Shown piece after piece: positions 797-39,629 of a DNA stretch of 41,371 nucleotides. Origin of the DNA: a virus; the IMG/VR virus record IMGVR_UViG_3300020183_000176, positions 1 to 41,371 of that record, one strand, 5' to 3'. The notes under the pieces were generated by a model, which was not told where the DNA came from, did not search any database, and saw only the letters and a list, made by a program, of their open reading frames with translations. Numbering within the stretch: position 1 is the first letter of the stretch; the number at the start of each line of letters is the position of its first letter. The translations under genes and the position numbers were made by a program.

Positions 797-817
797 AAAT
801 TTCAAGGGTTTGGTCTA

Positions 818-825
818 CAAATATA
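818..825 (-). promoter_or_regulatory. Candidate Bacteroidota -7 promoter element
   Basis: On the minus strand these bases read TATATTTG, matching the Bacteroidota -7 consensus TAnnTTTG. They lie about 22 bases before the ATG of the DnaA-like gene in the divergent intergenic region. No clear TTG -33 element is seen at the usual distance, so this is only a candidate. Confidence 0.4.
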
Positions 826-907
826 GGTTAGTTCTCTAAAATTTTGTATATTATAATGTAGGGTTTATACAGACTCTACATATTATAGGTTTATAAATAT
901 TTATACT

Positions 908-1180
908 ATGGCTAAGAAGTTCTATGCTCAGAAAGATGCTCTGGGCTGGCCTATTCCCGGTACAATGATGAGTGGATCCAAGGTGCCTGCTAATCTACTT
1001 GAGATTCCTGCAGCTAATGTAGCTCCAGGTGCTGGTCAAGTAGAAGTATATCATCCTGAAAAGCTTAGATACTTTGTACGGAAGGACAAGAAAGGAGATA
1101 TTATTCCTAACTCATTGATTATCAGCTTAAAAAAGCCAGTTGGTGATACTTATGAGTTTAAACTTGTAAAGGCTAGCTAA
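908..1180 (+). CDS. Conserved-looking hypothetical phage protein (90 aa)
   Basis: First gene of the plus-strand late-type module, starting at an ATG after a strongly A/T-rich leader. The 90-aa product begins MAKKFYAQKDALGWPIPGTM, is rich in Pro and Gly in its first half, and has no signal peptide or transmembrane segment. It lies immediately upstream (2-base gap) of a membrane protein and the lysis-type genes. Its function is not recognisable; a small virion or accessory role would fit the position but is a guess. Confidence 0.7.
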   Translation: MAKKFYAQKDALGWPIPGTMMSGSKVPANLLEIPAANVAPGAGQVEVYHPEKLRYFVRKDKKGDIIPNSLIISLKKPVGDTYEFKLVKAS

Positions 1181-1182
1181 CA

Positions 1183-1482
1183 ATGAATAAAGACAATCCG
1201 GCACTTTTTGCTTTTAAAATCTGGATATTCCCTGGTTTAGTTTCTATTCTAGGACTGATGATCTGGAATGATGTTAGTGAGATAAAAGCTGATGTCAAAG
1301 CTCTTATGGCCCAGTCCAATATAGACAAAACACGTATAGATAATCTGGAAAGACAGATATATGTTAAGCCTACTAGTAATCAACCTGCTAAAGAAGAGCG
1401 TAATCCTTTAAAAAACAATAAGTTATACGCAGTTATTCCTTATAATTCATTTAGACTTAAAAAACAAGTATATGACTTTTAA
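1183..1482 (+). CDS. Small membrane protein with N-terminal anchor and coiled coil
   Basis: A 99-aa protein with one hydrophobic segment near residues 10-27 (FKIWIFPGLVSILGLMIW), followed by a heptad-like helical stretch (SEIKADVKALMAQ...IDNLERQIY) and a basic tail. This topology resembles holin accessory or spanin-type proteins. The gene overlaps the next, holin-like gene by 11 bases, consistent with a lysis cassette. The lysis role is inferred from topology and context only. Confidence 0.7.
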   Translation: MNKDNPALFAFKIWIFPGLVSILGLMIWNDVSEIKADVKALMAQSNIDKTRIDNLERQIYVKPTSNQPAKEERNPLKNNKLYAVIPYNSFRLKKQVYDF

Positions 1483-1720
1483 ACAATGGATTTTAGACCT
1501 TTTTAAAGATGAGCGTGGCTCAACCTCAGTTAAACCTGTTGTAGGCTTTATGGGAGCTTTGTTTCTCTGTATTACTCTTACAGCTAATTCTTTTACTCAC
1601 GGTGATATCAAACCCTCTGATGCTCTTGTAGATGCTGTTCTAATCATGACCTGTGTAGGTATTGGAGCAGACAGCATTGATAAGTTTAGTCACAAGAAAA
1701 AGAAAGAAGATGAAGCTTAA
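1472..1720 (+). CDS. Holin-like protein
   Basis: An 82-aa protein with two hydrophobic segments (about residues 23-40, VVGFMGALFLCITLTAN, and 50-66, ALVDAVLIMTCVGIGAD) separated by a short polar turn. It ends in a lysine-rich tail (SHKKKKEDEA). Length, two-segment topology and charged C-terminus are those of small phage holins, which permeabilise the inner membrane to release the endolysin. A GH19 endolysin gene follows about 800 bases downstream. The gene overlaps its downstream neighbour by 11 bases. Confidence 0.7.
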   Translation: MTFKQWILDLFKDERGSTSVKPVVGFMGALFLCITLTANSFTHGDIKPSDALVDAVLIMTCVGIGADSIDKFSHKKKKEDEA

Positions 1721-2345
1721 TAAATACACTATAGTTATTTTAGTAGTCATTGGTCTTATTCTGTTATCACGTATTGGATGTAATAACGGATTTGGCTTTT
1801 TTGATAAACCTAAAGCTGATACGGTAAGAGTAGTAGACACACTTTGGGAAAAACATGATACTACTATTTATAAGAAAGTTACCGTAAAAGAAGTGATCTA
1901 TGATATAGATACTCTTCCTCCTCAATTGATTCCTGATACAAACTATGCTGCTTTAAAAGCACAGTTTGAAGCTTTAGTTAAAGAACATGCTTCTAAAGTT
2001 ATACAGTTTGATACCATTAAGGTTCCTCAACTCAAGGGTGGATTTTATATTAAAGACACTGTACAGTTTAATAAGATAGCCGGCAGATCTATTGATGCTG
2101 ATTATGTTATTCCTATTGTAAAAGAGACAGTGACTATTACTAAGCAAGCTCCAAAACGTAACCAGCTTTACATAGGAGGTGCTATTAACGTAGATAAAGG
2201 CTTTGCTCCTAGCACAGCTGAAGTTGGACTAATACTTAAAACCAGAAGAGATCAGATGATGGGCGTCAAAGCCGGATCTGATATCAACGGTAATGTAACC
2301 TACGGCTTCCAGAGTTACTGGAAGATAGGTAAGAAGGACAAATAA
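1710..2345 (+). CDS. Membrane-anchored periplasmic protein, possible spanin-like
   Basis: The start is placed at the ATG at 1710, overlapping the holin-like gene. The 212-aa protein has an N-terminal anchor (YTIVILVVIGLILLS) followed directly by a Cys, a region with repeated Asp-Thr pairs, and a helical segment (NYAALKAQFEALVKEHASKV). The C-terminal half is strand-like and Gly-rich, resembling part of a small barrel. It probably sits in the periplasm tethered to the inner membrane. A spanin or lysis-accessory role fits the context but is not proved. Confidence 0.7.
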   Translation: MKLNKYTIVILVVIGLILLSRIGCNNGFGFFDKPKADTVRVVDTLWEKHDTTIYKKVTVKEVIYDIDTLPPQLIPDTNYAALKAQFEALVKEHASKVIQFDTIKVPQLKGGFYIKDTVQFNKIAGRSIDADYVIPIVKETVTITKQAPKRNQLYIGGAINVDKGFAPSTAEVGLILKTRRDQMMGVKAGSDINGNVTYGFQSYWKIGKKDK

Positions 2346-2355
2346 AACACAAATC

Positions 2356-2526
2356 ATGAAAAGTATCGTAAAGATGCTTCTTAACCTTTTCAAAAAGAAA
2401 GCTGAAAAGAAGGTTGAAGAAGTAAAAAACATTGTAGTTCCTGCACCAGTACAGGAAGAGAAACCTAAGGCTAAGAAAAAGAAGTATTACCATTCTAAAC
2501 CTAAGCCTAAGAATAACCCATTATAA
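2356..2526 (+). CDS. Small lysine-rich hypothetical protein (56 aa)
   Basis: A short frame starting at ATG 2356, ten bases after the previous stop, and ending at TAA 2524-2526. The N-terminus is amphipathic (MKSIVKMLLNLFKKKAEKK), then comes an acidic/Val stretch and a Pro-Lys-rich tail (KPKAKKKKYYHSKPKPKNN). It sits between the anchored protein and the endolysin in a tightly packed operon, which is the main reason to accept it. Function unknown. Confidence 0.6.
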   Translation: MKSIVKMLLNLFKKKAEKKVEEVKNIVVPAPVQEEKPKAKKKKYYHSKPKPKNNPL

Positions 2527-2542
2527 CAAATATAGATAACTT

Positions 2543-3142
2543 ATGAATCTTGAAAAACTAAAGGGTCATGTACCTGATAAAGTGATTGAGCAGATTCCTG
2601 AGGTTATGCAGAAGTTTAGTGTAAATACACCACTGCGTCTATCTCACTTTCTAGCTCAGTGCGGCCATGAGTCTGGTGGTTTTAAGCTCACTCAAGAGAA
2701 TCTTAACTATTCAGCTAAGGGTCTTATGGGAATCTTTAAGAAGTATTTTCCTACAGAAGCTATAGCTAATGCTTATGCTAGACAACCACAGAAGATTGCT
2801 AACAAAGTATATGCTTCCCGTATGGGAAATGGTGCTGAAGCTTCTGGTGAAGGATTTAAGTTCCGCGGTCGTGGATATATCCAGCTCACCGGTAAGCAGA
2901 ATTATACTGCCTTTGACGCTTCTGTACCAGAAAGTATAGTAGATAACCCAGACTTAGTTGCTACTAAGTATCCATTAGCATCTGCTGCATGGTTCTGGAG
3001 TAAGAACGGACTTAATACAATTGCTGACCAAGGTTCTTCTAATGAAGTAGTAACTAAGATTACTAAGCGTGTAAACGGTGGTACGATTGGTCTTGCTGAT
3101 CGGATTAAACACTTTAAAGAGTATCACGCATTACTTGCATGA
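2543..3142 (+). CDS. GH19-family endolysin (chitinase/lysozyme-like)
   Basis: A 199-aa single-domain protein of glycoside hydrolase family 19. It shows the HES-GG motif (HESGGF) with the likely acid Glu43 and the later GEGFKFRGRGYIQLTG block carrying the second acid near Glu103. The C-terminal helical part contains WFWSKNGLN and the VNGG turn typical of the family. Phage GH19 enzymes cleave the glycan strands of peptidoglycan during lysis. No signal peptide is seen, so release probably depends on the upstream holin-like protein. Confidence 0.92.
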   Translation: MNLEKLKGHVPDKVIEQIPEVMQKFSVNTPLRLSHFLAQCGHESGGFKLTQENLNYSAKGLMGIFKKYFPTEAIANAYARQPQKIANKVYASRMGNGAEASGEGFKFRGRGYIQLTGKQNYTAFDASVPESIVDNPDLVATKYPLASAAWFWSKNGLNTIADQGSSNEVVTKITKRVNGGTIGLADRIKHFKEYHALLA

Positions 3143-3173
3143 TAGGAAAAGTCATCTGTAAAAATTTCAAAAT

Positions 3174-3308
3174 ATGGCTAAAGCCAAAGGCTCCAAGGCC
3201 GGAGAATCAAGAAAGGTCACATTTGGAAAACGCAAGGGTGGCAAAGCTTCTAAAAGTAAAGGGCCCAAAGATAAAAAAGTCTCCAAGTACCGCGGACAAG
3301 GACGTTAA
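3174..3308 (+). CDS. Very basic 44-aa protein
   Basis: A short frame from ATG 3174 to TAA 3306-3308. The product is almost entirely Lys, Gly, Ser and Arg (MAKAKGSKAGESRKVTFGKR at its start, YRGQGR at its end). It has no hydrophobic core, and such proteins usually bind nucleic acid or are packaged in virions. It lies in line with the plus-strand operon, 31 bases after the endolysin. The role is inference. Confidence 0.6.
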   Translation: MAKAKGSKAGESRKVTFGKRKGGKASKSKGPKDKKVSKYRGQGR

Positions 3309-3342
3309 CTCCTAGTAAAAACCAACCTCTAAATCTGATGTT

Positions 3343-3828
3343 ATGAACCTTAGAGGTTATTTTATTTTATTATTATCTGTACTGTTTGTAGGATCTTCCT
3401 ACTCACAGAATATTTATATTGATAGTGTAAGGAACAGTATACCTACTGGTCCACTTACTGCTAATAAGAATCTTAGTTTTGGTGTAAAGAACATCTTAGC
3501 TGAAGTACTTCAAGACAAAGGTCTTGATCTTCTTCCTAAAAAAGAAGAAGGAGAGCTTAGCTTAGTTACTGAGATATACTTCTTTGATATTGTACAAACC
3601 AATGGTGGTGTATCTGTATTTAAGAAGCAGGCTAACACAACTGTTATGGGCCTGAAAGGCATGCTGTATAAAAACGGCAAGCTCGTTAGTTCTAAAAAGA
3701 TAGAAGAATCATCCTCTGAAATAGTAATAGCCAACCTGGTTGTTCCTGAAGATGGTAAACCCAATCAACAGTCTGTTAGTAATGTAATTAAAAAAGCCTG
3801 TCAAGCTCTAATTGACAAACTCCTATGA
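3343..3828 (+). CDS. Exported CsgG-related protein (divergent, short)
   Basis: A 161-aa protein with an N-terminal signal peptide (hydrophobic YFILLLSVLFVGSSYS, likely cleaved before QNIY). The mature part can be aligned by eye to the CsgG-like protein encoded at 6904-7665. LSFGVKNILAEVLQDKGLDL parallels LGVTNIIVEYLEETGRF, EIYFFDI parallels EVYDFSV, and the C-terminal helices also match. It is therefore probably a shortened relative of the same fold. The gene overlaps the next start by 4 bases (ATGA). Its exact role in envelope transport is unknown. Confidence 0.65.
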   Translation: MNLRGYFILLLSVLFVGSSYSQNIYIDSVRNSIPTGPLTANKNLSFGVKNILAEVLQDKGLDLLPKKEEGELSLVTEIYFFDIVQTNGGVSVFKKQANTTVMGLKGMLYKNGKLVSSKKIEESSSEIVIANLVVPEDGKPNQQSVSNVIKKACQALIDKLL

Positions 3829-5726
3829 GAAAACAACTTTTGCTTGCTTGCTTCCTTCTTTTCTCAACACTTAGTTTTTCCCAGTCTATTGGACATTTCC
3901 AACAGCTGGCTACCGTGAAGAGAGGAGATACATTAGATGTAGCTTGGTACTATCAACCTAGTGGTTCAGTAGATATCAGGACGTTTCAAGTGGACTTCCA
4001 GTTTAAAAAGGATCTGTTTACCTGGTTGAGTACTGCTATAGATACTCCGTATGTGACGACTGCACGCCAGCCTCAGCTGGACTATAGGCAATTTGATGGG
4101 TATAAATACAATACCTATACAGGTGGCAACTATACTTATTCATCTGATGCTAACTGGTCTGTTGGACGTAACTATTTAACACTTCCTGCCGGTACCGGGT
4201 TTGGTACAAACAATGGATATATAATCCATAATAAGTACAAGATCAATGCTGTAGCATCAAACTTCGTGTCTGATACAATCACTGTAAACTGGGCTAGACT
4301 GTTTAAAGTAGACGGTACCAGTATAGGAGACAACGTAGCAACTCTTACAAATAAGAAGCTTGCTATCTTCTTACAGGGTAACTTGACTATTTCAGGTAAG
4401 ATCTGGATGGGAGAAGCCACTGGTCTACCTACTATCATAGCATATAACAATAATACTGGTATAGAAGCTTCCCGTACAGTTCCTGCTGCTAATGGTACGT
4501 ATACACTAACTAACATAGAACAGAACACTAAGTATAAAATTAAGGTGTTGTTCTCTCGTGATAGTTTAATTACAATGCGTGACCGTGCAGTTACTGTAGC
4601 AGATGCTGTAAAGACATATAATGAATTCAAGGGAGCTGATGTTACTCAGAACTACCCAAGAACATTCTTGACAAATGGATTAGCCTATCTGATTGCGGAT
4701 GTAAACCGTAACGGACAGCTAGATGGTGGTGATCCTTATGGGATCTATGCATCTGTATCAGGACTTCTTCCTGTAGATACATCACGTTTAGTAAACGTGT
4801 TTTTAAAGAATGAGTTTGACTCTTTGGCTATAGCAGCTAACCAGTGGACAGCCTGGGCTAATAACCGTGATAAGGGATTGTTTGTATATGACTCTGTGAC
4901 TACAGTTAACTCTGTAAATATAGACATTAAGTATATGTTACTTGGTGACGTAGATAGATCTCACTCTTCACCGGTTTATAACTCACAGGGACAACTAGTA
5001 GCTCGTACAATTTATAGAGGTGATATCAACGTAAATATCCCAGATACTTATGTGAATAATTCTCAGCCACTGTTTGTACCGTTTAATGTAGACTATGCTA
5101 GTTATAAAAATACAGGACTTCAGTTTGAGATGAAATACGATCCTGCTGTAGTTAGATTTGACCAAATCCAGTCTAACATTGATGGTCCTTGGTTACAGTA
5201 TATAACAAATGACTCTACAAATGGTATAGTACGCTTTGGTGGCATGAATAACCAAAACAAAGGATTTTTAACAGGAGAGTTTACACCATATAAGCTTAAG
5301 TTCTCTCCTAAAAATCTGGGAACTAATATCACTACGTTTGTATATGTGAGACGTTTAATGGATGCAGCAGATGAGAATGGGGACCATTATAACATTGTGC
5401 TTCAGTCTGATCGTATAGTAATGAGCTACCGTATGAATGGCGGTGTTCCAATTTATACAAACATGGAGCCTACTATAGCAGTTAATCCTAATCCTACTAC
5501 AGGACAGTTTGAGGTAGTGATATTCCTTCCTAAGAATAGTACAATGAATGCACTGGTTTATGATATGCAAGGTAGAAAGATTATGGATCTTGGTAAGTTT
5601 GAGACACAGGATACAGAGTTTACTTTTCGTAAACCAGTTTCTGGTACAGGAATCCCTGCAGGTATGTACAATTTAGTATTATTTGATAACCGTAAACGTA
5701 TAACAACTAAACTAGTTAAATCCTAA
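3825..5726 (+). CDS. Secreted modular protein with T9SS C-terminal sorting domain
   Basis: This 633-aa protein has a signal peptide (residues 1-20, LLLACFLLFSTLSFSQ). A cohesin-like beta domain follows (about 25-180), then a carboxypeptidase-regulatory-like beta domain (about 187-243) and a dockerin-like calcium loop (DVNRNGQLDGGD, 292-303) with a second loop GDVDRSHSS (374-382). A second cohesin-like domain spans about 410-535. The last ~80 residues match the type IX secretion sorting domain: NPNPTTGQF, VYDMQGRKI, IPAGMYNLVLF and a terminal KLVKS. The protein should be exported by Sec and then by the host T9SS to the cell surface. A phage gene with this signal is unusual. No catalytic residues are recognised. 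Confidence 0.85.
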   Translation: MRKQLLLACFLLFSTLSFSQSIGHFQQLATVKRGDTLDVAWYYQPSGSVDIRTFQVDFQFKKDLFTWLSTAIDTPYVTTARQPQLDYRQFDGYKYNTYTGGNYTYSSDANWSVGRNYLTLPAGTGFGTNNGYIIHNKYKINAVASNFVSDTITVNWARLFKVDGTSIGDNVATLTNKKLAIFLQGNLTISGKIWMGEATGLPTIIAYNNNTGIEASRTVPAANGTYTLTNIEQNTKYKIKVLFSRDSLITMRDRAVTVADAVKTYNEFKGADVTQNYPRTFLTNGLAYLIADVNRNGQLDGGDPYGIYASVSGLLPVDTSRLVNVFLKNEFDSLAIAANQWTAWANNRDKGLFVYDSVTTVNSVNIDIKYMLLGDVDRSHSSPVYNSQGQLVARTIYRGDINVNIPDTYVNNSQPLFVPFNVDYASYKNTGLQFEMKYDPAVVRFDQIQSNIDGPWLQYITNDSTNGIVRFGGMNNQNKGFLTGEFTPYKLKFSPKNLGTNITTFVYVRRLMDAADENGDHYNIVLQSDRIVMSYRMNGGVPIYTNMEPTIAVNPNPTTGQFEVVIFLPKNSTMNALVYDMQGRKIMDLGKFETQDTEFTFRKPVSGTGIPAGMYNLVLFDNRKRITTKLVKS

Positions 5727-5730
5727 ATAT

Positions 5731-6036
5731 ATGTCAGAAGAATTAGAACAATCAAATGACGGTACTTGGTCTGGTCTTAAGAAGACAGTCGTAGGTACTA
5801 TTAGTACAGTAATCCTGGGTGCAGGCACTTGGGTAGGTACAACTCTTTTTGGAGGTAAAGAAGAAGCTGCTCCAGCTCCTGCTGCACAGCCAAGTATTAT
5901 TATTAATAACACTCAAGCTCAGCAACAAGCTGCCGGTGGAACTAAAGTAATTGAGCGTGTGATTGAAAAGCCAGCTGCAAAACCTGCAGAACCAGCTCCT
6001 AAGAAAAAAGAGTTTTCAGAAGAACCAAAGTGGTAA
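5731..6036 (+). CDS. Small membrane protein with Ala/Pro-rich tail
   Basis: A 101-aa protein. Residues about 17-41 form a Gly/Thr-rich hydrophobic segment (TVVGTISTVILGAGTWVGTT) resembling a glycine-zipper membrane helix. The rest is low-complexity Ala, Pro, Gln and Lys (EEAAPAPAAQP ... KPAAKPAEPAPKKKE). It starts 4 bases after the T9SS cargo gene and is followed by another membrane protein, so the operon context is clear. Function unknown; a tether or pore-associated role is possible. Confidence 0.65.
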   Translation: MSEELEQSNDGTWSGLKKTVVGTISTVILGAGTWVGTTLFGGKEEAAPAPAAQPSIIINNTQAQQQAAGGTKVIERVIEKPAAKPAEPAPKKKEFSEEPKW

Positions 6037-6052
6037 TTATTAAATAGTATAT

Positions 6053-6652
6053 ATGAGCAACCAAGTATCTGAAAAAGGATTTCAAGGACTTCTTAACGCT
6101 ATGATGAGAAGACGCTGGTTTATTACAGCGTTAGTATTAGGATCTTTTATCCTTATTGTTGGTGGCATTTTTGTAGCCATAGAAATTGGCAGCCCAATGG
6201 CAGGTGAGTGGAAAGAACTTCTACTTCTTATGCTTGGTGCCTTTATCGGTAGTTATGGTAAGATTATAGACTACTGGTTTTCTGATACAGACAAGGATAA
6301 AATGCTTGTACAGAAGATGGATGAAGAAGATGGTGTCTCTTTATCTAATACGGCTAATATCAAAGACACGCCACGTGAACAGAAGTCTTTAGTAGATCCG
6401 ACCTTTGCTGCATTTGCCGCAAAAGCTTCGGAGGAAAAAGAAGAATTACCTGCAGAATCTAAACCTGTAGATAAAAAAGGTACAGAGATAGACGAAGACG
6501 GTGATGGTGTTATGGACGGTCTAGACTTTGACGGTGATGGTAAGATAGACGAGTACTTTGCACATAGACAGTGTGAGCATGTATGGGGTGATGTAGACGG
6601 AGACGGTAATCTTGAGTGCCTTAAGTGTGGCAAGATTAAAGATCCGGAATAA
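6053..6652 (+). CDS. Two-TM protein with calcium-loop and Cys-pair tail
   Basis: A 199-aa protein with two transmembrane segments (about residues 22-45, WFITALVLGSFILIVGGIFV, and 54-70, ELLLLMLGAFIGSYG), like a small holin. A long soluble tail follows. The tail holds EF-hand-type Asp loops (DEDGDGVMDGLDFDGDGKID, and later DVDGDGNLE) and a Cys/His cluster (CEH ... CLKC) that could bind a metal. It lies between the Ala/Pro-rich membrane protein and the CsgG-like gene. The combination suggests a metal-sensing or metal-stabilised envelope protein; this is inference. Confidence 0.7.
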   Translation: MSNQVSEKGFQGLLNAMMRRRWFITALVLGSFILIVGGIFVAIEIGSPMAGEWKELLLLMLGAFIGSYGKIIDYWFSDTDKDKMLVQKMDEEDGVSLSNTANIKDTPREQKSLVDPTFAAFAAKASEEKEELPAESKPVDKKGTEIDEDGDGVMDGLDFDGDGKIDEYFAHRQCEHVWGDVDGDGNLECLKCGKIKDPE

Positions 6653-6675
6653 TATTTCTTACTTAATCCTGTAAT

Positions 6676-6897
6676 ATGGAAGCTGATGAACAAAAGAAAG
6701 AGACTAAAGATTTTACGTTCCTCCAGGGATATAAGCTTGATGCTGGCAATGTTTTTCTTGCCACTTGGATACGATCTTTTGTTCAAGACTCTCTTAAACA
6801 TTACGGGGAGCTTTTGGGTTACCGATATCATATTTTACTGTATATCAGGATTATTTTGGCTGCTTTACTTTTTATTATCCAAGACTTTAAAGTCTAA
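6676..6897 (+). CDS. Alternative/overprinted small membrane ORF (frame 1)
   Basis: A 73-aa frame from ATG 6676, preceded by an A/T-rich leader typical of starts in this genome. The N-terminal half is charged (MEADEQKKETKDF) and the C-terminal half ends in one hydrophobic helix (HILLYIRIILAALLFII). Its codon choice resembles the neighbours. It overlaps almost completely, in another frame, the 73-aa ORF at 6686-6907. Only one may be real, or both may be translated as overlapping genes. I cannot decide from the sequence alone. Confidence 0.4.
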   Translation: MEADEQKKETKDFTFLQGYKLDAGNVFLATWIRSFVQDSLKHYGELLGYRYHILLYIRIILAALLFIIQDFKV

Positions 6898-6907
6898 TAC
6901 ACCATGA
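6686..6907 (+). CDS. Small two-TM membrane protein (frame 2), ATGA-coupled to next gene
   Basis: A 73-aa frame from ATG 6686 with a basic N-terminus (MNKRKRLKILRSSRD) and two hydrophobic segments (ISLMLAMFFLPLGYDLLF; then VTDIIFYCISGLFWLLYFLL). Its TGA stop overlaps the ATG of the CsgG-like gene (ATGA at 6904-6907), the usual sign of translational coupling. The coherent two-TM topology and this coupling favour it over the competing frame starting at 6676, whose leader looks better. Function unknown. Confidence 0.5.
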   Translation: MNKRKRLKILRSSRDISLMLAMFFLPLGYDLLFKTLLNITGSFWVTDIIFYCISGLFWLLYFLLSKTLKSNTP

Positions 6908-7665
6908 AAGTTGATAAAGAATCATTTAAGATATTATTGATGATAGGTATTTGGTTACTACTAATGTTTATTATTAGCAGTATAATCACTACTGTTTCAG
7001 CACAGACTGTAGGATCTACAAAGACAGAACAGTACCAGGCTGGTTTTGAGAAGAAGGTAAATATTGATTCCTTGATGGACTATAACGGTCCAACTATTCC
7101 TATACAGTTATTAAGTTTAGGAATTAATGAGGATGTATATGCTATGTACCCAGAGCTTAAAGATAAACGTGTTGGGCTGGGTGTTACTAATATCATTGTT
7201 GAGTATCTAGAAGAGACTGGTAGGTTTACTTTTACAGAAGATAAAACTGAAATTAAAAACCGTATGGTTAAACAGTTTCAGGCTAGTCAATCTGGAATAA
7301 CGGAGAATAAACTAGATGGACGTGGTAAGATTATGTTAGCACGTTACTTTGTGTACATAGAAGTATATGACTTCTCTGTATCTGTAGATGAGGAAATAAA
7401 GGTTGCTAATGGTGTTAAAGAAACCATGGTGACACGTCTTGGTCTACAGGCAAAGTTTGTGGACGCTGAAACAGGAGAATACTTCACTGCCTCAGGTCTT
7501 GGAGAAGCTAAAACTGTCAGAGAGCTCACTCTTCTTAATGATGATAACCTCTCTGAGATTAAGTTTAACCAATCAACAATTGGTATCACTACGAAGAAAG
7601 CTCTGGAAACAGCAGCTTCTAGAGTAGTTCTGCGGATGATAAAGAAGCAGATCTTTAAGAACTAG
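6904..7665 (+). CDS. CsgG-like outer-membrane secretion protein
   Basis: A 253-aa protein with an N-terminal export signal (ILLMIGIWLLLMFIISSIIT, cleavage likely after VSAQ). The mature region resembles the CsgG/HfaB family: PIQLLSLGI, then VGLGVTNIIVEYLEETGRFTF, then RYFVYIEVYDF and a C-terminal helix. CsgG forms the oligomeric outer-membrane pore for curli export. The usual lipoprotein cysteine is not seen, so it may not be lipidated. It sits between membrane proteins and an outer-membrane barrel gene, with a 1-base overlap downstream. The family call is from pattern reading and is moderate. Confidence 0.65.
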   Translation: MKVDKESFKILLMIGIWLLLMFIISSIITTVSAQTVGSTKTEQYQAGFEKKVNIDSLMDYNGPTIPIQLLSLGINEDVYAMYPELKDKRVGLGVTNIIVEYLEETGRFTFTEDKTEIKNRMVKQFQASQSGITENKLDGRGKIMLARYFVYIEVYDFSVSVDEEIKVANGVKETMVTRLGLQAKFVDAETGEYFTASGLGEAKTVRELTLLNDDNLSEIKFNQSTIGITTKKALETAASRVVLRMIKKQIFKN

Positions 7666-9083
7666 TGTGGCACCGTGCCGTTTATATCATAACATTGCTT
7701 GCCCTTTCTCTGACTGCAAGAAGTCAGGTATTAACGTATCCGTTCACCGATCCTTGTACGAAGGTGGTAACTACGTTTACAATACCTGTAACGGGTAATA
7801 CTGTCATTTACTTTCTAGGCAAATCGGCCTCGTTTACTGCAGCAGATGTCAGTAGCGGGGCTTTTGCTTCTTGGATAAACGCTACATATGATGACTATAG
7901 AAAGATTTCACCTTGTGGTCAGCAGTCTGGGCAGGTGACTCAGAATCAGATTACTAGTCAGATAATAGGTAACACAGTACAAAGTGTAGTGAGTTCTATA
8001 ATGAGTTCGGCACAGAGTCAGGCCACATCTTCTGTGGTGTCAAGTGCTACAGGGACTTCAGTGTCATCCGGGGGAGGAGGTGTGTCTGACGCTAGCTCTA
8101 AGGATAATAAAGACTCTAAATCTAATAACAATGGAAATACTTCTAATAGTTCTTCTAATACCTCTTCTGGCAGCTCTACTAGCCAGTCAGGAGGTTCGTC
8201 AGGCTCTTCAGGTTCTAGTCAAACTACTACTGGTTCTAGCAACACTGGCGGGAGTAATAATACTAGCTCATCTAAATCTGACAAAGGATCTACTCAAGAA
8301 GGGTCTCAAGAAGTTGCGGCTTCCACTACTATGAGTGCAGACGCATCTGCAGACAAATCTGGAGGAGATAATAGTTCTTCTTCAGGAGGTGGTAAAAATG
8401 GAGGTAAATCAGGTGGTAAAGGTGGAGGGAGTAACCCTATACTAGTATCATCTGATTTTACTACAGCTCAGAATCTGGATAAGTCATTCACGCCCATCTT
8501 AAATCTATCTATGAGTCAGTCTTCACTGACAGGTAAGACAAGCTGGGGTATGACCGGTATGGTGTGGTTTAACTTTAAGCAGTTTGCTCTTAGTGGTAAG
8601 TATACAAGATTAAATGTAAGCAAGAGTGGTAAGCTGAAGTATATTTCAAACTTTGCTCTCACTGCAGTGTATAGTTACGGAAACATCTTAGGATTTATTG
8701 GATACAGCGGTATTCTAAATGCAGGTAAGTTTGGGGTGACAGGTTTTAATGTATCAGGTGCAGCAAGTGTAATAAGTGAAGATGACAATACATTCTTTTC
8801 TCCGTCTATTACAGCCTTTTATACTAAGCCTTTTTACTTAAATAAGCGTAAGAGGTTCACTATATCCCCTGAACTATATATTATTTCTACCCCTCTTATT
8901 TATTCTACCAAGGATAAAGTGACACAAAGTGACAGAACTTTTAGTTTCTTTGCAGGATCAGGTTTTGATTATCAGATAAGTAAGAAGTTTAAGTTTAACG
9001 TAAACTATAAACTTAATGCTAGTACAAACCGTGAATTTCCTATTCTTAGTTTCTTTTTAGTGGGGAGCAAGATTAACTTATGA
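7665..9083 (+). CDS. Outer-membrane beta-barrel protein with Ser/Gly/Asn-rich linker
   Basis: A 472-aa protein from a GTG start that shares its G with the preceding TAG stop. Residues 1-20 are a signal peptide (VYIITLLALSLTARS). A short N-terminal domain has two Cys, and residues ~108-255 are a long low-complexity Ser/Gly/Asn/Thr linker (SSGSSTSQSGGSSGSSGS and similar). The last ~210 residues alternate aromatic and polar strands, ending FPILSFFLVGSKINL, as in an outer-membrane barrel. It is probably inserted in the host outer membrane, with the linker exposed or spanning the periplasm. Function unknown; it overlaps the lectin gene by 4 bases. Confidence 0.75.
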   Translation: MWHRAVYIITLLALSLTARSQVLTYPFTDPCTKVVTTFTIPVTGNTVIYFLGKSASFTAADVSSGAFASWINATYDDYRKISPCGQQSGQVTQNQITSQIIGNTVQSVVSSIMSSAQSQATSSVVSSATGTSVSSGGGGVSDASSKDNKDSKSNNNGNTSNSSSNTSSGSSTSQSGGSSGSSGSSQTTTGSSNTGGSNNTSSSKSDKGSTQEGSQEVAASTTMSADASADKSGGDNSSSSGGGKNGGKSGGKGGGSNPILVSSDFTTAQNLDKSFTPILNLSMSQSSLTGKTSWGMTGMVWFNFKQFALSGKYTRLNVSKSGKLKYISNFALTAVYSYGNILGFIGYSGILNAGKFGVTGFNVSGAASVISEDDNTFFSPSITAFYTKPFYLNKRKRFTISPELYIISTPLIYSTKDKVTQSDRTFSFFAGSGFDYQISKKFKFNVNYKLNASTNREFPILSFFLVGSKINL

Positions 9084-10519
9084 GAAAACTACTTGTTATA
9101 TTATTTTCTATAATTACTGTGCTATCTAAAGCTCAGTCAGTCACTGCTCCTCTTGGTAGAACATACCAAGTAAATGTAAGCGGACAAGATGCAAGTGGTT
9201 TTGTTATCAATGGTTTTACTTCACAGTTATTGTTAACTTCTATAGGGTTGGTTAATCCACCCGCAGGAGTTAGTTTTAGTATTACAACTACTACAGGTTT
9301 ATCTTTTGCTTCAGGATATAACTCTTGGAGCAATCAAACCCGTTTAAGTTTTATTGGTACGCAAGCTAATGTAAATAATGCCTTAGCTTCTTTAAAGATT
9401 AATACTGGTTCCACTACAGGAAACGTACAGATATCAGTATCAACTACTGAGAACCCAGCTGGTTATTACTATAATGCTGTTAACGGTCACTTTTACAGAC
9501 CTATATCTAGTACTACTTTTTATTCTACAGCTAAATCTTTATCTAGTCAACAGACATTTAAAGGTCAGACTGGTTATCTTGTTACAATAACTTCTCAGTC
9601 TGAACAAGACTTTATTGTTGCTAATGTACCACAGAACAACATATGGTTTGCTTTGTCTGATGTTGTACAAGAAGGTTATTGGCGTATAGATGCGGGACCT
9701 GAAAACGGTACATTAATTAAGACACAAAACGGTCAGACTGCTGGTAATATAGCCGGTCAGTATAATAACTGGTGCGGAGGTGAACCTAATAACGCAGGAG
9801 GTGAACACTACGCTGTTACCAAATGGGGCGGTGGAGGTTGTTGGAATGACTTACCTAATAATGTTAATTGTGCATACATAGTTGAATTTGGTACTTGGTC
9901 TAATCCAGCTGATGCTACATTCACAGGATTTTATACAGCTAATACTACAAATACAGTGGCGGTAACTAATACTCTTACTGGGACAGTTACTATTCCTGCA
10001 GGATTATCATCTAGACCACTGTTAACTTTATATAGAGTGGTTAATGGATCTGACATCTTAGTTGATTACAAGAATGTGAACACTGATGGAACATACACTT
10101 TTACTCTACCTAATCAGAACTCTACATATAAACTAGTTCCATCTTTATCTGTACAGGGTATTACACTTGCTGACTTTACAGTAACTTGGGCAGAAGGTTT
10201 AAACATTAACACTCCTAATAATACTAGTCCTGGTTTATCTTTAACTGGGACTAAACAATGGAAAGCAGCGGATGTAAATAAAAACGGTATATTAGACCTT
10301 GGTGATGCCTTCTTAATAATAGCACACACCACAGGATTAAGATTAATTTCGGAAGTCTTATGGTTTAATCCATCAGACTATGACAGTATAACAAGATCAA
10401 GCTTCTCTACTATTAATCCAGTGAGCTCGTTTACAATAAACGTAGCTACTAGTAATGTTACACAGAACATAAAGTATTGTGTACTTGGGGATGTAAATCT
10501 ATCTCACAGTTCAAACTAA
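9080..10519 (+). CDS. Secreted C-type lectin-domain protein with dockerin-like loops
   Basis: A 479-aa protein with a signal peptide (residues 1-19, LLVILFSIITVLSKAQ) and an N-terminal beta domain. A C-type lectin domain lies at about 130-270, with WFALSD, a WRIDAG turn, NNWCGGEPNN, CWNDL and the final CAYIVEF. A second beta domain and a dockerin-like loop follow (DVNKNGILDLGD, ~399-410). The last residues, YCVLGDVNLSHSSN, match the middle of the T9SS cargo protein (YMLLGDVDRSHSS). The homologous second half with the sorting domain is missing, so this looks like a shortened relative. Probably a glycan-binding surface or virion protein. Confidence 0.85.
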   Translation: MRKLLVILFSIITVLSKAQSVTAPLGRTYQVNVSGQDASGFVINGFTSQLLLTSIGLVNPPAGVSFSITTTTGLSFASGYNSWSNQTRLSFIGTQANVNNALASLKINTGSTTGNVQISVSTTENPAGYYYNAVNGHFYRPISSTTFYSTAKSLSSQQTFKGQTGYLVTITSQSEQDFIVANVPQNNIWFALSDVVQEGYWRIDAGPENGTLIKTQNGQTAGNIAGQYNNWCGGEPNNAGGEHYAVTKWGGGGCWNDLPNNVNCAYIVEFGTWSNPADATFTGFYTANTTNTVAVTNTLTGTVTIPAGLSSRPLLTLYRVVNGSDILVDYKNVNTDGTYTFTLPNQNSTYKLVPSLSVQGITLADFTVTWAEGLNINTPNNTSPGLSLTGTKQWKAADVNKNGILDLGDAFLIIAHTTGLRLISEVLWFNPSDYDSITRSSFSTINPVSSFTINVATSNVTQNIKYCVLGDVNLSHSSN

Positions 10520-10523
10520 AAAA

Positions 10524-10556
10524 ATAAGACCAGTGAGATATACCCACTGGCCTTAT
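10524..10556. terminator. Bidirectional terminator between convergent operons
   Basis: An 11-pair hairpin with one mismatch (ATAAGaCCAGTG / CACTGGcCTTAT, loop of 9) between the convergent lectin gene and minus-strand gene 10575-11192. A T-rich run follows it on the minus strand (TTTTTTT), and a weaker A/T tract on the plus strand. Confidence 0.8.
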
Positions 10557-10574
10557 AAACAATAAAAACAACAA

Positions 10575-11192
10575 CTACTCGTCCTCATTATCTTTAGAAA
10601 ACAAGTTTCTTAAAATGTCATCAATATCAGGCTTACTTTCAGAAGTCTGGTTATCATTATTATTAACCCATCTGTTAAGTAAGTTCATATAGGTATTGAA
10701 ATTATGATGACTATTTTTTACCAAGCTGATTCTTTTCAGCATAGACTTTTTATTAAGTTGATCTATAGGTAAATTATCAGCATCATTATCACTATCATCG
10801 TCTTCTTCACGCTGCTTATGCATTTCTTCTACAAGTTCTAAAATAGCAGACTTAAGTTTTTCCTCAGTGCTCTGTTTATTTTCTTGCATGTGTTTAAAAT
10901 AAGCATAGGTCTGTTTAGCCATACGTTCATAGTTATTAAAGATTAAAAGAGTATATTCATACTCAAGATTATCTGTAATACTATTTAGTAATCTATGCAA
11001 GTTACCACTTACAGTACGAAGTTCTCTTGGAGCATCATCTGGGTCTTCAAACAGTTCTTCTGTTTGGATTGCATTACTAAGAGACGTAAAGAATATACGC
11101 TCTCTGCATTTAGTACGAATTTCATTTGATATACCTATGGACTGATGAAAGACATCATTCTCATGGTTAAATTTAGTATTAGCTAATATCAT
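10575..11192 (-). CDS. Hypothetical protein in MoxR/vWA operon
   Basis: A 205-aa, mostly helical, hydrophilic protein with a strongly acidic patch (REEDDDSDNDADNLP) and an acidic C-terminus. It has no signal peptide or membrane segment. It begins 6 bases after the vWA gene and is the last gene of the MoxR-vWA operon before the convergent terminator, so it is probably a cofactor or substrate of that pair. The family is not recognised. Confidence 0.75.
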   Translation of the reverse strand: MILANTKFNHENDVFHQSIGISNEIRTKCRERIFFTSLSNAIQTEELFEDPDDAPRELRTVSGNLHRLLNSITDNLEYEYTLLIFNNYERMAKQTYAYFKHMQENKQSTEEKLKSAILELVEEMHKQREEDDDSDNDADNLPIDQLNKKSMLKRISLVKNSHHNFNTYMNLLNRWVNNNDNQTSESKPDIDDILRNLFSKDNEDE

Positions 11193-11198
11193 ATAATT

Positions 11199-12710
11199 TT
11201 ATTTTATAGTTAGACCAGTCTGATCTACTTTATGAATAGTTTCTCCATCAAAGACAACTACTTGTCCTCTTAATGAGTATTGCTTAATAACATCACTTTG
11301 GAAGTGATTAAATTTTGCTCCCTGTAGTCCAATAAAAAATGCTTTATCACAAAAGTTATTGCAGCGATCTTCTGCATCTGTTATAACTATAGCGTTGCGA
11401 TCATTCTTTACTATACTAGATACAGCAGCATCAATACTAGTACCACCTCCACAATCTATCATAGAGATAGATACTAAATCGTTACGATACTTTTTAACTC
11501 TTGTATCAAACAAGTAGACATCATTTAGCATATCCATTTCTTTAAGCTTAGCTATCATTGATTTAGCAAAGTCTATACGGCTAATATGATTACCGTCAGC
11601 GTTACGAGAACCACAAGTGGTTGACATAGATCCAGATATATCTACGTAGACATCTATTTTACCAACTGCTTTAGTATCTTTAATCTGAATATCTTCAGCA
11701 AAGATTTTACGCAACTGAGGATGTAATAACTCATAGTCTTCTAGACCAGATACATCTTGAGCATTGAATAGATCTTCGTATGTTGTAATCTTACGAGAAG
11801 AAAAGTAACTAGTAGATTTATCCAAAAGTTTTTTCAACTTTTCTTTAAGAGCACCCATAGAAAGCTTGATATTAGCAAGTCTACCTGCTACTTGACGCAT
11901 ATATTCAGGACTTATTTTGCCAGCTTGATTACCTGAACCAGGTTTATTAGCTTGATCAAAGAGTTGTTCCTGAATATCCTGAGTCATGCTTTCATCCATC
12001 ATTTTGCAAGTATCTTGAGCATCTTTCATAGCACGATCTAATGCATTCTTACTAGCTTGATTATTTAGCATTTTATCCAATGCATCATCAGCATCTTTAC
12101 TGTCAAATTCAGACTCACCATTAAGACTTTTCTTTAAATTCTTATAAGCATTTGGGTCAATATATTCTAGCTGGGTCATTTGCATGAGATAGTACATCAC
12201 CATATTACGAGTAAATATGGCAGACTTTAGACTTCCTCCTTCAGTCATAATTTTACCAACAGGATTATTTGCTTTCTCTAAAAACTTATAGCGAGTACTG
12301 TTTTTATCTGTACGTTCTACAAAATCAAGTTTTTCCATCTTGTTGTAATACATCTTAAAGATATCATACTTAAGATGTTCAGGAAACTTGTCAAAGTTTT
12401 GACGTACTTTAGTAAAGAATTTACTGAAATCAGGCTTTTTATCTTCAGGAATCTTACCAAATGCACTGGTCTTACTAAAGTATTCATACTCTTGCTTGAT
12501 TTTACTTTGATCCATTAGACCAGCTTCTATAATAGTGTGAATTTTATCTTCATCTATGTAATGAACATAGGGTTTAATAAGATCGGCTTTCTTATAAAAG
12601 TTTAGTTTACCAAACAGACCACCTTCGTTTTTATAATGAGACTGGATCTCACCTTTCTTTACTTTTTCAAGAATCGTATATACGTTCTTGTATTGTTTAG
12701 TACTTGACAT
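11199..12710 (-). CDS. von Willebrand A-domain protein, partner of MoxR ATPase
   Basis: A 503-aa protein. Residues ~1-340 are helical and charged. The C-terminal ~150 residues form a vWA domain with a complete-looking MIDAS: DISGSMS at 357-363, the Thr in GGGTSID, and the Asp in ITDAED. Together with the upstream MoxR-type AAA+ gene this matches the RavA-ViaA, CbbQ-CbbO and NorQ-NorD arrangement. In those pairs the ATPase remodels a target and the vWA protein supplies specificity. Substrate here unknown. A 12-bp hairpin separates the two genes. Confidence 0.88.
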   Translation of the reverse strand: MSSTKQYKNVYTILEKVKKGEIQSHYKNEGGLFGKLNFYKKADLIKPYVHYIDEDKIHTIIEAGLMDQSKIKQEYEYFSKTSAFGKIPEDKKPDFSKFFTKVRQNFDKFPEHLKYDIFKMYYNKMEKLDFVERTDKNSTRYKFLEKANNPVGKIMTEGGSLKSAIFTRNMVMYYLMQMTQLEYIDPNAYKNLKKSLNGESEFDSKDADDALDKMLNNQASKNALDRAMKDAQDTCKMMDESMTQDIQEQLFDQANKPGSGNQAGKISPEYMRQVAGRLANIKLSMGALKEKLKKLLDKSTSYFSSRKITTYEDLFNAQDVSGLEDYELLHPQLRKIFAEDIQIKDTKAVGKIDVYVDISGSMSTTCGSRNADGNHISRIDFAKSMIAKLKEMDMLNDVYLFDTRVKKYRNDLVSISMIDCGGGTSIDAAVSSIVKNDRNAIVITDAEDRCNNFCDKAFFIGLQGAKFNHFQSDVIKQYSLRGQVVVFDGETIHKVDQTGLTIK

Positions 12711-12724
12711 ATTGTCAAAATTTA

Positions 12725-12756
12725 AAGTAAAGCTGGCTACTATACCAGCTTTACTT
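12725..12756 (-). terminator. Hairpin between moxR-like and vWA genes (attenuator or weak terminator)
   Basis: A perfect 12-bp inverted repeat (AAGTAAAGCTGG / CCAGCTTTACTT) with an 8-base loop. It lies between the ATPase stop and the vWA start. Only a mixed A/T tract follows on the minus strand, so partial termination or RNA protection is more likely than full termination. Confidence 0.6.
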
Positions 12757-12770
12757 ATTTAAAATTTATT

Positions 12771-14099
12771 TTATGCTTGTTCTGCCATCATAGCATCAAA
12801 CTCCTCGGCAGACTGGTAGTTTTTACGAGCAGGGTGAATGGCTAAGATGTACTGCATAGAAAGCTCTATTTCTTCTACCTGTGTTTCATCCATGATATTA
12901 CGGGAAACATAAGTATTGATCAGACTTTCTACGTCAGCTATTGCAAGCTCTAGTTGTTCGTTTGTAGTATAGCTTTGTAGCATCTCTACTTTGCTCATAA
13001 CAGCCTTAACTTCTGGACTCATCAGTTTGTTCTGTAGTTCAGAACCTGCTGATTGTCCAATCATAATCTGGGCTGTCTTTACTAATGCTTTATCTACTGA
13101 GATATCCCAGATATAGCTAACTGCTTTAGTAAGTTTTGGTACAAAAGTCAAAGTACGATCTGAGCTATGTTGGTAGCCAACTTCTAGATACTTTTCCAGT
13201 TTGTTTACTGGAATTTCTACCTGATCAATTTCTGCAGTATTAGGAACACCAATACTGAACTTCTCACGGTAGTTACGAGCACCTTTGTTATAGTACTTAA
13301 CTAGCTCACCTGCAGATACGCGGTTTACTGTCATCTTTAACATAAAACGATCCCAGAATGGAGAGTTTTGCTCATCTTTAGGAATCTCATTACAAGTTGC
13401 AATAAACAGTTTCCACTTACATGGAATCTTATTTTTACCATTAAATAAGAACTTCTCATTCATAACACCCAACATGGCGTTACGTATAGCTGAGCTAGCT
13501 TTGTCTACCTCATTGATGATAACAATCTCTGCATCAGCAATGGGAGCGTTAAGTTCATACTTGTTCTCAGTAAAAAGTTTACTCAGGTCAGGCATACCTT
13601 TAATTTCTGAGGCCTTAGTACCTTCATCTGTTTCCAGGATGTAAATCTTATTAGCAAAGTCTTGGTTGGTCATTTTACCATCTTTGTTTAACCATGCCTT
13701 TGCGTATTCTATCACGGTTTTGGTCTTTGCAACGCCAGGCTCACCGATTAATAGACAAGGCAGGCCGGTAGATTCTGCAAGGGCCATCATTTTAAATACT
13801 TCTTCTTTGTTAATCAAAGAAGTTTCAATAGTACGTACCTCTTGGGTAGTTTTTTTTGTGATTGTCTTTACTTTAGACATGTTTGCTGTGTTTGGATTTT
13901 TAGGACTTGGATTAAATTTGGTTGTTGTCTGAGAAGTATTTACTTGATGAGCTTTCACCCAGCGTTGTACACCTGCAGTAGTTGCTCTTACTTCCCAAAG
14001 GTTACCATCATTGCCGATCATTTGATAACCGACAGCATACAGTGTTGCACTCTGTGTAGGACTTGGCCTTACAGAAGTGTTAGTTCTCATTATACTCAT
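12771..14099 (-). CDS. MoxR-type AAA+ ATPase
   Basis: From the ATG at 14099 the product has 442 aa. A ~100-residue N-terminal part contains a short YQMIGNDGNLWEVR module. The AAA+ core follows with Walker A GEPGVAKT (119-126), Walker B as VIINEVDKA, sensor-1 ATCNEIP and an Arg-containing FWDRF. Walker B has Asn where Asp is usual (NE instead of DE), which could alter hydrolysis. An open frame extends to 14246, but that start would overlap the upstream gene by 143 bases. The ATG at 14099 lies a few bases after that gene's stop and is preferred. Pairs with the downstream vWA gene. Confidence 0.88.
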   Translation of the reverse strand: MSIMRTNTSVRPSPTQSATLYAVGYQMIGNDGNLWEVRATTAGVQRWVKAHQVNTSQTTTKFNPSPKNPNTANMSKVKTITKKTTQEVRTIETSLINKEEVFKMMALAESTGLPCLLIGEPGVAKTKTVIEYAKAWLNKDGKMTNQDFANKIYILETDEGTKASEIKGMPDLSKLFTENKYELNAPIADAEIVIINEVDKASSAIRNAMLGVMNEKFLFNGKNKIPCKWKLFIATCNEIPKDEQNSPFWDRFMLKMTVNRVSAGELVKYYNKGARNYREKFSIGVPNTAEIDQVEIPVNKLEKYLEVGYQHSSDRTLTFVPKLTKAVSYIWDISVDKALVKTAQIMIGQSAGSELQNKLMSPEVKAVMSKVEMLQSYTTNEQLELAIADVESLINTYVSRNIMDETQVEEIELSMQYILAIHPARKNYQSAEEFDAMMAEQA

Positions 14100-14103
14100 A
14101 GGA

Positions 14104-14460
14104 TTAGAGGTTGACGAAGGCTGTAAGGTCGTCTGAGGTTTCAGTAACTTCCATTGATGGGTTGATGTCTGCCACTCGTACCACTCTTTGTTCCACAATG
14201 TTATTGCTGGTAGGTCTGGGTTCTCCGGTTTTAGTAGTGGTCTCATACTTTGTATCGTCTATGATATTAAATACAGTAATATTAGTCTCAGCGTCTTTTA
14301 GAGCTGGATGTTTACGGATCATAGCAATCTGCTGATCTTTTGCATTGTACTTGTCTTGGATGTTACCGTAACCGATGTCATCACGTTTTAACCAGGTAAG
14401 ACCGTTGTTAAGGTCTTCTAAGATCTGTGATACATACAGATCCACTTTGTTTACTGCCAT
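14104..14460 (-). CDS. Hypothetical protein upstream of MoxR-like ATPase
   Basis: A 118-aa protein starting MAVNKVDLYVSQILEDLNNG, with an ordered helical N-terminus and a polar, Thr-rich C-terminus (SSDDLTAFVNL region). It has no membrane segment. It is directly upstream of the ATPase start with a gap of only a few bases, so it belongs to the same operon. Family not recognised. Confidence 0.7.
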   Translation of the reverse strand: MAVNKVDLYVSQILEDLNNGLTWLKRDDIGYGNIQDKYNAKDQQIAMIRKHPALKDAETNITVFNIIDDTKYETTTKTGEPRPTSNNIVEQRVVRVADINPSMEVTETSDDLTAFVNL

Positions 14461-14486
14461 AGTAGTAGTTATTAGATTTTGTTTAA

Positions 14487-15062: not shown

Positions 15063-15063
15063 G

Positions 15064-15249
15064 TTATTTTTTAATTTTTTTTTGTGTATCAAATAGTTTT
15101 CCTACCTTTCTTATCATATTGGCTCTTGGTCCTGTTTCTTCACCTACTGATTCTTTAGAGTTAATAAGTTCTCTTGCTATGCTTACTATAAATACCAAAA
15201 ACAGTATAGATATAACACTAGATAGAACTATTATATCAGTGTTTTCCAT
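15064..15249 (-). CDS. Small single-TM protein (61 aa)
   Basis: The product begins MENTDIIVLSSVISILFLVF, a clear N-terminal membrane helix, followed by a charged helical tail (ARELINSKESVGEE ... KLFDTQKKIKK). It lies between two other small genes with almost no spacing. Function unknown; one of several tiny membrane proteins of this arm that could act on the host envelope. Confidence 0.65.
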   Translation of the reverse strand: MENTDIIVLSSVISILFLVFIVSIARELINSKESVGEETGPRANMIRKVGKLFDTQKKIKK

Positions 15250-15250
15250 T

Positions 15251-15424: not shown

Positions 15425-15425
15425 A

Positions 15426-16142: not shown

Positions 16143-16152
16143 AAAAGTTATC

Positions 16153-16160
16153 TAAATTTG
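16153..16160 (+). promoter_or_regulatory. Candidate -7 promoter element
   Basis: TAAATTTG matches TAnnTTTG and lies 16 bases before the ATG at 16177, a suitable distance for a short leader. A TTG occurs upstream, but with only about 14 bases of spacing, shorter than the usual 19-20. Plausible but unproven. Confidence 0.4.
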
Positions 16161-16176
16161 TTACAAATAATATCCT

Positions 16177-22172: not shown

Positions 22173-22204
22173 TTAACGATTGCTTGCTTGCCTCTAAAAG
22201 GCAG

Positions 22205-37106: not shown

Positions 37107-37122
37107 CATTAAACTAATTTTT

Positions 37123-39624: not shown

Positions 39625-39629
39625 TTATC

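Follow-up and report, generated by a model that had tools for sequence, protein, structure and literature searches.

Phage genes for cargo of the type IX secretion system (T9SS) have been described before. The part of the Cryophage paper that deals with them reports T9SS type A sorting domains on an endoglucanase, a GH39 protein and a PA14 protein, encoded in variable islands, and its authors proposed a hijack of the host T9SS and already suggested superinfection exclusion (PMC7468147). For crAss-like phages of cluster 2, the relevant portion of another report places T9SS domains beside BACON proteins (PMC6949934). The subject of this article is a 633-aa T9SS cargo protein and the conserved operon that encodes it, found on a 41,371-nt fragment of the IMG/VR virus record IMGVR_UViG_3300020183_000176 (positions 1 to 41,371; this whole stretch is referred to as the window). 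The operon probably serves to remodel the cell surface of Bacteroidota during infection, and the best-supported step is the export of the cargo through the host T9SS by means of its sorting domain, which we regard as very probable. The cargo gene and its predicted parts are listed here, with the equivalent genes of Flavobacterium phage vB_FspM_immuto_2-6A (hereafter immuto).

3825..5726, + strand: T9SS cargo gene, 633 aa, ATG start; equals immuto gp014 plus gp015
Cargo layout (aa): putative signal peptide 1-19, cohesin-like module 20-186, FN3/CNA-B-like module 187-245, dockerin-like module 246-398, cohesin 399-540, T9SS type A sorting domain 554-633
5484..5723, + strand: coding region of the T9SS type A C-terminal sorting domain (TIGR04183 above cut-off at 5484-5720)

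A sequence-only reading had proposed a phage-encoded T9SS cargo at 3825-5726 on the + strand, and both the 633-aa open reading frame (ORF) and all four of the motifs quoted from it are present. The sorting pattern was borne out by a hidden Markov model search, in which residues 554-632 of 633 matched TIGR04183 (NCBIfam; E 4.2e-9, 36.3 bits, cut-off 23) and PF18962 (E 1.4e-6, 28.9 bits, gathering threshold 27). By the profile and by the position of the domain in its sequence, the protein is thus classed as a T9SS type A cargo, and the cargo gene gives the one TIGR04183 match of the window record. Among 31 aligned relatives of the cargo, 26 match TIGR04183 at E 0.01, and P555, N556, P557, D580, G583, G590, G613 and Y615 are invariant in all 31, although mean conservation across the sorting domain is only 0.61. 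The structure model has seven predicted strands at residues 550-632 (block pLDDT 76-88), and the predicted C-terminus thereby shows the 70-100-residue, Ig-like, seven-strand sandwich that the pertinent section of PMC11285876 gives for T9SS domains. D580 and G583 sit where predicted strand 3 is joined to strand 4, in a loop that we ourselves equate with the conserved strand 3-4 loop glycine motif described in that section. The outcome that would have counted against the T9SS reading, namely no profile match and an ordinary virion domain at the C-terminus, did not arise.

At the other end of the protein, a hydrophobic helix is predicted, and all 31 aligned relatives have Gln at position 20, just behind what resembles a cleavage site. 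Gln in this place is the Q-rule of Bacteroidetes (PMC5837995); helix and Q-rule site together were read as a putative Sec signal peptide. The cohesin-like module named in the sequence-only reading is retained on its fold, with residues 399-537 of the model matching cohesins at Z 14.6 (rmsd 2.6 over 136 residues), and on its immuto homologue, which exceeds the Pfam cut-off at 36.7 bits; the window protein itself, however, scores 14.1 bits against PF00963, below the gathering threshold of 24.1. A second cohesin-like module is predicted at residues 16-186 (Z 12.5). The dockerin-like part also proposed there is supported but weaker at the level of sequence, having invariant residues yet no profile match. 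Asp292, Asp300 and Asp303 occupy EF-hand-like calcium-loop positions and are invariant in 31 of 31 relatives, with a second repeat that is partial only, and the FN3/dockerin region (residues 187-381) is homologous to the C-terminus of the lectin protein LEC of the same operon (hhalign to the cargo profile, prob 98.4). A relative of that lectin in locus L048 reaches 18.6 bits against Dockerin_1, below the threshold of 22.9. A search of the cargo-family profile against PDB sequences gave nothing below E 0.01.

The cargo is the second gene of an operon at 3343-10519, the other members of which are as follows.

3343..3828, + strand: SP161, exported small protein of 161 aa, first gene of the operon (hhalign to immuto gp019, prob 96.0)
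5731..6036, + strand: p101, 101 aa, one hydrophobic stretch and then a Pro/Ala-rich tail (45% over 53 aa to immuto gp016)
6053..6652, + strand: TM199, 199-aa membrane protein with two hydrophobic stretches (topology by eye)
6904..7665, + strand: SP253, exported protein of 253 aa with a predicted CsgG-like fold, the best conserved gene of the operon (60.5% to immuto gp017)
7665..9083, + strand: SP472, exported protein of 472 aa with a Ser/Gly-rich middle (34% over 209 columns to immuto gp018)
9080..10519, + strand: LEC, exported protein of 479 aa with a C-type lectin domain and an FN3/dockerin-like C-terminus (Lectin_C 23.5 bits against 22.6)

This order (SP161, cargo, p101, TM199, SP253, SP472, LEC) is conserved. 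Relatives of the seven, in the same order and at E 1e-6, are found in 87, 87, 82, 69, 79, 77 and 81 of the 87 loci L002-L088, with many of the gaps falling at contig ends. These counts, like the copy lengths and the class counts given further on, are based on ORFs that run from the first start codon after a stop and are not curated genes. Adjacent genes overlap (SP161 and the cargo gene by 4 bases) or almost touch, save for approximately 250 bases before SP253. Most of the operon appears to be exported. Q-type signal peptides were counted in 128 of 131 cohesin, 133 of 134 SP253 and 130 of 130 SP472 ORFs; the background, made up of 1181 other ORFs with a length of at least 150 aa, had 40. The count for LEC, into which cohesin ORFs are mixed, was not used. 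For SP161 the proportion is lower (83 of 135), and in the p101 family the signal is rare (13 of 113). Proteins following the Q-rule had been noted earlier in phages of P. gingivalis, as the corresponding passage of PMC10367356 records. The earlier idea of a surface-remodelling gene is accordingly to be recast, in that the cargo is not a single gene but one gene of a conserved, mostly exported operon. The C-terminal half of SP472 reads, by eye, like an outer-membrane beta-barrel, and the C-terminus of TM199 is, by eye, rich in Asp and then shows spaced Cys residues (C..., C..C) which could bind metal. A possible relationship between SP253 and SP161 (hhalign prob 48.5 over 31 columns) is not claimed. 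Profile searches with SP253 and with SP161 gave weak matches or none.

The same module was identified in a cultured phage, immuto (NC_055915; 160 kb; host Flavobacterium sp. LMO8), at 10527-16409. Its genes gp013 to gp019 comprise homologues of the cargo (as two genes), p101, SP253, SP472 and SP161, plus a lectin with a dockerin end; they differ from the window in that the cargo is split, the gene order is rearranged and the annotations read lectin, cohesin or hypothetical. Residues 2-378 of the window cargo correspond to gp014 (prob 92.8) and residues 399-631 to gp015 (prob 98.2), the latter carrying the cohesin module and a T9SS domain (TIGR04183 44.8 bits, Por_Secre_tail 34.6), while the lectin gp013 matches Lectin_C at 57.3 bits. 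gp016, gp017, gp018 and gp019 complete the module. Entries of 243 aa and 363 aa, which from these lengths we take to be gp015 and gp014, stand at ranks 2 and 4 in a search of a viral structure library. A tblastn search with the cargo against the collection of cultured phages gave no match, and the search with SP253 returned four immuto records. Two proteins encoded apart in some genomes and as a single fusion in others frequently work together, so the split of gp014 and gp015 against the fused window cargo supports a scaffold role. The host of immuto, together with the adherence of the exported members to the Q-rule, upholds the earlier prediction of a T9SS-using Bacteroidota host. The genus Immutovirus is mentioned in the part of a review that concerns it (PMC11500664).

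Large terminase and portal genes at 37328-41371 match phage families in a PHROG search, which makes the carrier a phage and, with the sorting profiles passed, the cargo a phage-encoded one as originally proposed. The window terminase is approximately 25% identical, over 85-89% of the query, to those of crAss-like and related Flavobacterium phages; judged from this hallmark sequence, the genome appears crAss-like. A scan of viral contigs with the single cargo protein gave 62 loci, and one with the cargo alignment gave 94 stretches encoding a relative, of which 80 loci were kept; with the SP253 alignment, at least 580 of 599 stretches encode a relative and 80 loci were kept. In 19 large contigs (65-321 kb), the window terminase and portal have a relative in one, whereas Terminase_6N is matched in 15. 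The terminase of the 321-kb contig, the only one examined further, is T4-like and also matches that of immuto. With terminases as unlike as crAss-like and T4-like ones among the carriers, the operon occurs in at least two phage groups by terminase. The sequence-only reading, which looked to crAss-like genomes, is to be widened, since the operon extends to jumbo contigs with other terminases, one of them T4-like.

One explanation for such a gene is that it was acquired from a Bacteroidota host as an accessory gene and provides the infected cell with an extra secreted protein, for which there is a precedent in the T9SS-tagged enzymes among the variable genes of Cryophage, as far as the portion of PMC7468147 dealing with them goes. 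The cargo behaves otherwise. All full-length copies extracted from the first scan have 629-636 aa, the gene order is constant in viral contigs, and the cargo gene is the one and only TIGR04183 match in 19 of 19 large contigs. Two scans of 84,980 prokaryote genomes, one with the single protein and one with the alignment, yielded 20 and 70 pattern-matching stretches respectively, none of them a relative, within the reach of short peptide patterns that could miss remote relatives. An accessory origin of this kind, other than a remote one, is thus highly improbable.

A second class of loci bears on where the operon acts. Classes were counted over 141 contigs with SP161 or SP253, which remained after 26 duplicates and immuto had been dropped and which are not independent of one another. 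The cohesin protein is fused to a T9SS domain in 88 of these and lacks the fused domain in 45; a gene for a lipoprotein is present in 45 of the 45 and in 0 of the 88. Eight contigs belong to neither class, seven of which we read as cut by locus ends and one (L189) as retaining a remnant only; between the SP161 remnant and SP253 of L189, all that is left of the cargo is an 89-aa frame carrying the sorting domain. The lipoprotein (~117-130 aa) is encoded nearby, and in most of the loci read its gene is the next one downstream of that for the cohesin protein; in L124 and L125 a lectin-like gene lies between the two. L124 itself is rearranged, with two tandem small lipobox-like genes (one of the lipoprotein family) and a lectin-like gene at 4775-5505.

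The C-terminal part of the lipoprotein is aligned with the T9SS domain by hhalign (prob 90.5, E 1.4e-6 for the pair), single members give E 1e-4 to 1e-3 against this domain, and TIGR04183 is matched at 16.6-18 bits, under its cut-off, in three records. On these sequence comparisons we consider homology of the two to be moderately supported but not certain. A lipobox pattern is present in 40 of 45 lipoproteins, and the other five have, by eye, a Cys behind a hydrophobic stretch. Each of the 40 has at least one acidic residue, and 28 of them have at least two, at positions +2 to +6 from the Cys, somewhat like SDDFE, given as the surface lipoprotein export signal of F. johnsoniae in the relevant section of PMC5080379. 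A match of the lipoprotein to Cor superinfection exclusion (phrog_1119, E 0.03) is itself unsupported and was not used. On a tree of 89 different SP253 proteins, in which the long-branched immuto row was labelled by us as T9SS-domain class, the lipoprotein state requires 4 changes, at least 3 of them forced by well-supported branches; recombination inside the operon could likewise give three to four state changes. From the sequences, T9SS use appears as one of two alternatives. The dependence on T9SS that had been assigned to the gene would apply to the fused class (88/141) and not to the 45/141 contigs in which a lipoprotein replaces the domain. The swap of T9SS domain and lipoprotein suggests that the operon acts at the cell surface.

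It also bears on whether the operon proteins are virion components, in which case the C-terminal domain would be merely an Ig-like virion domain. Ig-like beta domains are common in tailed-phage virions, and the virus structure search lists tail and capsid proteins as well. The exact replacement of the fused domain by a lipoprotein does not fit, nor do Q-type signal peptides in nearly all members and scores over the cut-offs of TIGR04183 and PF18962. The operon of immuto is preceded by genes for a polymerase, a recombinase, a helicase and a ribonucleotide reductase and is not among structural genes, and in the 15 large contigs with a terminase match the operon is approximately 16-108 kb from it. 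A place in the virion is hence very unlikely.

The best conserved member, SP253, gives a further view of the operon. Foldseek placed CsgG at the top of the matches to its model (E 6.7e-7), and the model aligns with the curli pore CsgG at Z 11.5 over 153-168 residues, such that the predicted structure has a CsgG fold. This might suggest a phage-encoded secretion channel, a CsgG-like ring with partners which exports the cohesin protein, lectin or nuclease, the T9SS domain only fixing one of them. Neither the lectin nor the cohesin protein of the lipoprotein class has a T9SS domain, although both carry signal peptides, and some route across the outer membrane is therefore needed for them. Yet no CsgG family occurs among the profile matches of SP253 at E up to 5, its signal ends in ..SAQ without a lipobox, i.e., without a Cys for lipid anchoring, and the same fold is common to non-channel lipoproteins such as LptE. 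A channel of this type is, in our estimate, quite unlikely.

We therefore propose that the cargo anchors a phage-encoded envelope module at the cell surface and serves as its scaffold, a reading that we hold to be slightly more likely than not. The cargo would be exported by Sec and cut so that Gln20 becomes its N-terminus, after which the host T9SS would carry it across the outer membrane and the sorting domain would fix it at the cell surface. Its cohesin module would hold a dockerin-like module, most simply that at the C-terminus of LEC, and it is fairly likely that the two form a cohesin-dockerin complex on the cell surface. SP253 with its CsgG fold, SP161 and the barrel-like SP472 would form the outer-membrane part, and the infected cell would display a lectin-bearing cohesin-dockerin assembly. 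In the second phage class, the lipoprotein with its sorting-domain-like part would anchor the assembly, replacing the fused T9SS domain. By altering or covering the surface, the assembly might prevent attachment of other phages or of progeny of the same phage; exclusion or receptor masking is put forward tentatively as its likeliest purpose. We lean towards exclusion because of an exported-type nuclease, the weak similarity to TraT and the place that the operon has in immuto. The nuclease gene (gp012) adjoins the operon in immuto and is found in 6 of 88 fused-class and 6 of 45 lipoprotein-class operons; copies within or beside the operon include L154:8699-9325 (phrog_14168 nuclease, E 6.2e-19), L151:8676-9287, L128:8970-9584, L043:14785-15408 and L115:9935-10513.

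Several observations weigh against this proposal. The lectin gene is present in 77 of 88 fused-class operons but in 2 of 45 of the lipoprotein class, and lectin display cannot be a function common to all. The adhesins to glycans or kin of the sequence-only reading are kept as a conjecture. In Pfam, dockerin type I (PF00404) has no match in the cargo, and confidence in the predicted models is intermediate (mean pLDDT 68 and 69). CsgG-fold proteins serve many functions, and the match of SP253 to TraT, a surface exclusion protein, is at Z 6.6, below the guide value of the tool. Lastly, an endolysin gene lies near 51 of 88 fused-class and 35 of 45 lipoprotein-class operons (86/133), and a late, lysis-linked role would fit this as well as exclusion does. 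The window has the following features next to the operon.

1472..1720, + strand: hol82, small membrane protein of 82 aa in the neighbouring lysis region, holin-like by eye from its hydrophobic pattern
2543..3142, + strand: LYS, GH19-type endolysin adjoining the operon (phrog_181 endolysin, E 4.9e-70; GH19 Pfam 35.2 bits)
10524..10556, no strand assigned: hairpin of 14 pairs at the convergent operon end, with a T-run on the - strand side

The operon might then be a module for outer-membrane lysis and release, with a division of labour in which the inner membrane and the wall fall to the holin-like and endolysin genes, and rupture or opening of the outer membrane to the cohesin, CsgG-like and barrel proteins. 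The main evidence is the nearness of LYS together with that of holin-like membrane proteins of the hol82 type, near 48 of 88 fused-class and 42 of 45 lipoprotein-class operons. Loci such as L048 have the endolysin gene approximately 30 bases behind that of the lectin and on the same strand, and two small membrane proteins, p101 and TM199, are encoded inside the operon. The lysis region of the window, however, also has a 211-aa membrane protein that is spanin-like by eye, and a surface lectin and cohesin-dockerin modules are unnecessary for membrane breakage. The endolysin of immuto is approximately 6 kb off, with replication genes on the other side, and that of L020, L038 and L039 is on the opposite strand. 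We judge a lysis module to be unlikely, and retain the surface-anchored assembly as the preferred explanation.

Other features were recorded in the course of the analysis. hol82 had no PHROG match, and a promoter scan of 800-10800 was uninformative (30 sites against 32.7 expected). An ATPase-like gene (12771-14246, - strand; phrog_19600, E 3.9e-17) faces the operon from the opposite side. The stretch 22202-22675 on the - strand is, by its full-length Rfam match (RF00023, 84.1 bits), classed as a phage-encoded tmRNA gene, where ARAGORN gave none. A tRNA-Asp (gtc) lies at 37013-37107 on the + strand, directly before the terminase gene. At L046:14852-16218 the lectin gene is split into two ORFs, while it is intact in the near-identical contigs L047-L049.

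Compared with described systems, phage T9SS cargo as such was known before, but this operon is apparently unreported; in the open-access literature, no report of the operon or of the anchor swap was found. Hardly any of its gene families has a name in PHROGs or Pfam, and many phage annotations could consequently be improved. The best structural match of the cargo in the viral library, the UniProt entry A0A6J5M064 of an uncultured Caudovirales phage, is of near-equal length (636 aa) and is named for the sorting domain, which had thus already been flagged automatically. Cryophage likewise has genes with T9SS type A sorting domains, but in variable islands, whereas the window cargo is a conserved cohesin-dockerin protein in a fixed operon, with one per genome. 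The cluster 2 crAss-like phages are similar in having T9SS sorting domains upstream of head genes; they have BACON repeats instead of cohesin or dockerin modules, and the part of their description that covers this region contains no such operon. What had been scattered, variable accessory genes in earlier phage cargo would here be the fixed anchor of a conserved operon. The anchor swap amounts to a natural experiment, and the presence of the operon in more than 100 environmental contigs and in a cultured Flavobacterium phage makes phage use of T9SS testable in an existing phage-host pair.

The CsgG curli pore and, more weakly, the TraT ring resemble SP253 in fold, at 10-12% identity, but SP253 lacks a lipobox and no curli partner genes were seen. 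If the exclusion reading is true, the operon would parallel the surface exclusion of plasmids, and would do so in bacteria whose phage-encoded exclusion has, for the phylum and in our judgement, been little studied. Cellulosomal pairs resemble the phage proteins in the cohesin fold, the dockerin-like loops and, in immuto, separate partner genes; they differ in that the phages have a lectin instead of enzymes and that the pairing here is read from sequence and models. A bolder and rather doubtful possibility is a mobile 'envelope organelle' common to unrelated phage lineages, in which a CsgG-fold ring and barrel carry a cohesin-dockerin scaffold, lectin-tipped in part of the phages and with its outer anchor exchanged repeatedly between the T9SS tag of the host and a phage lipoprotein, made to exclude rival phages. 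If that were true, viruses would be seen for the first time to build a surface assembly like the cellulosome.

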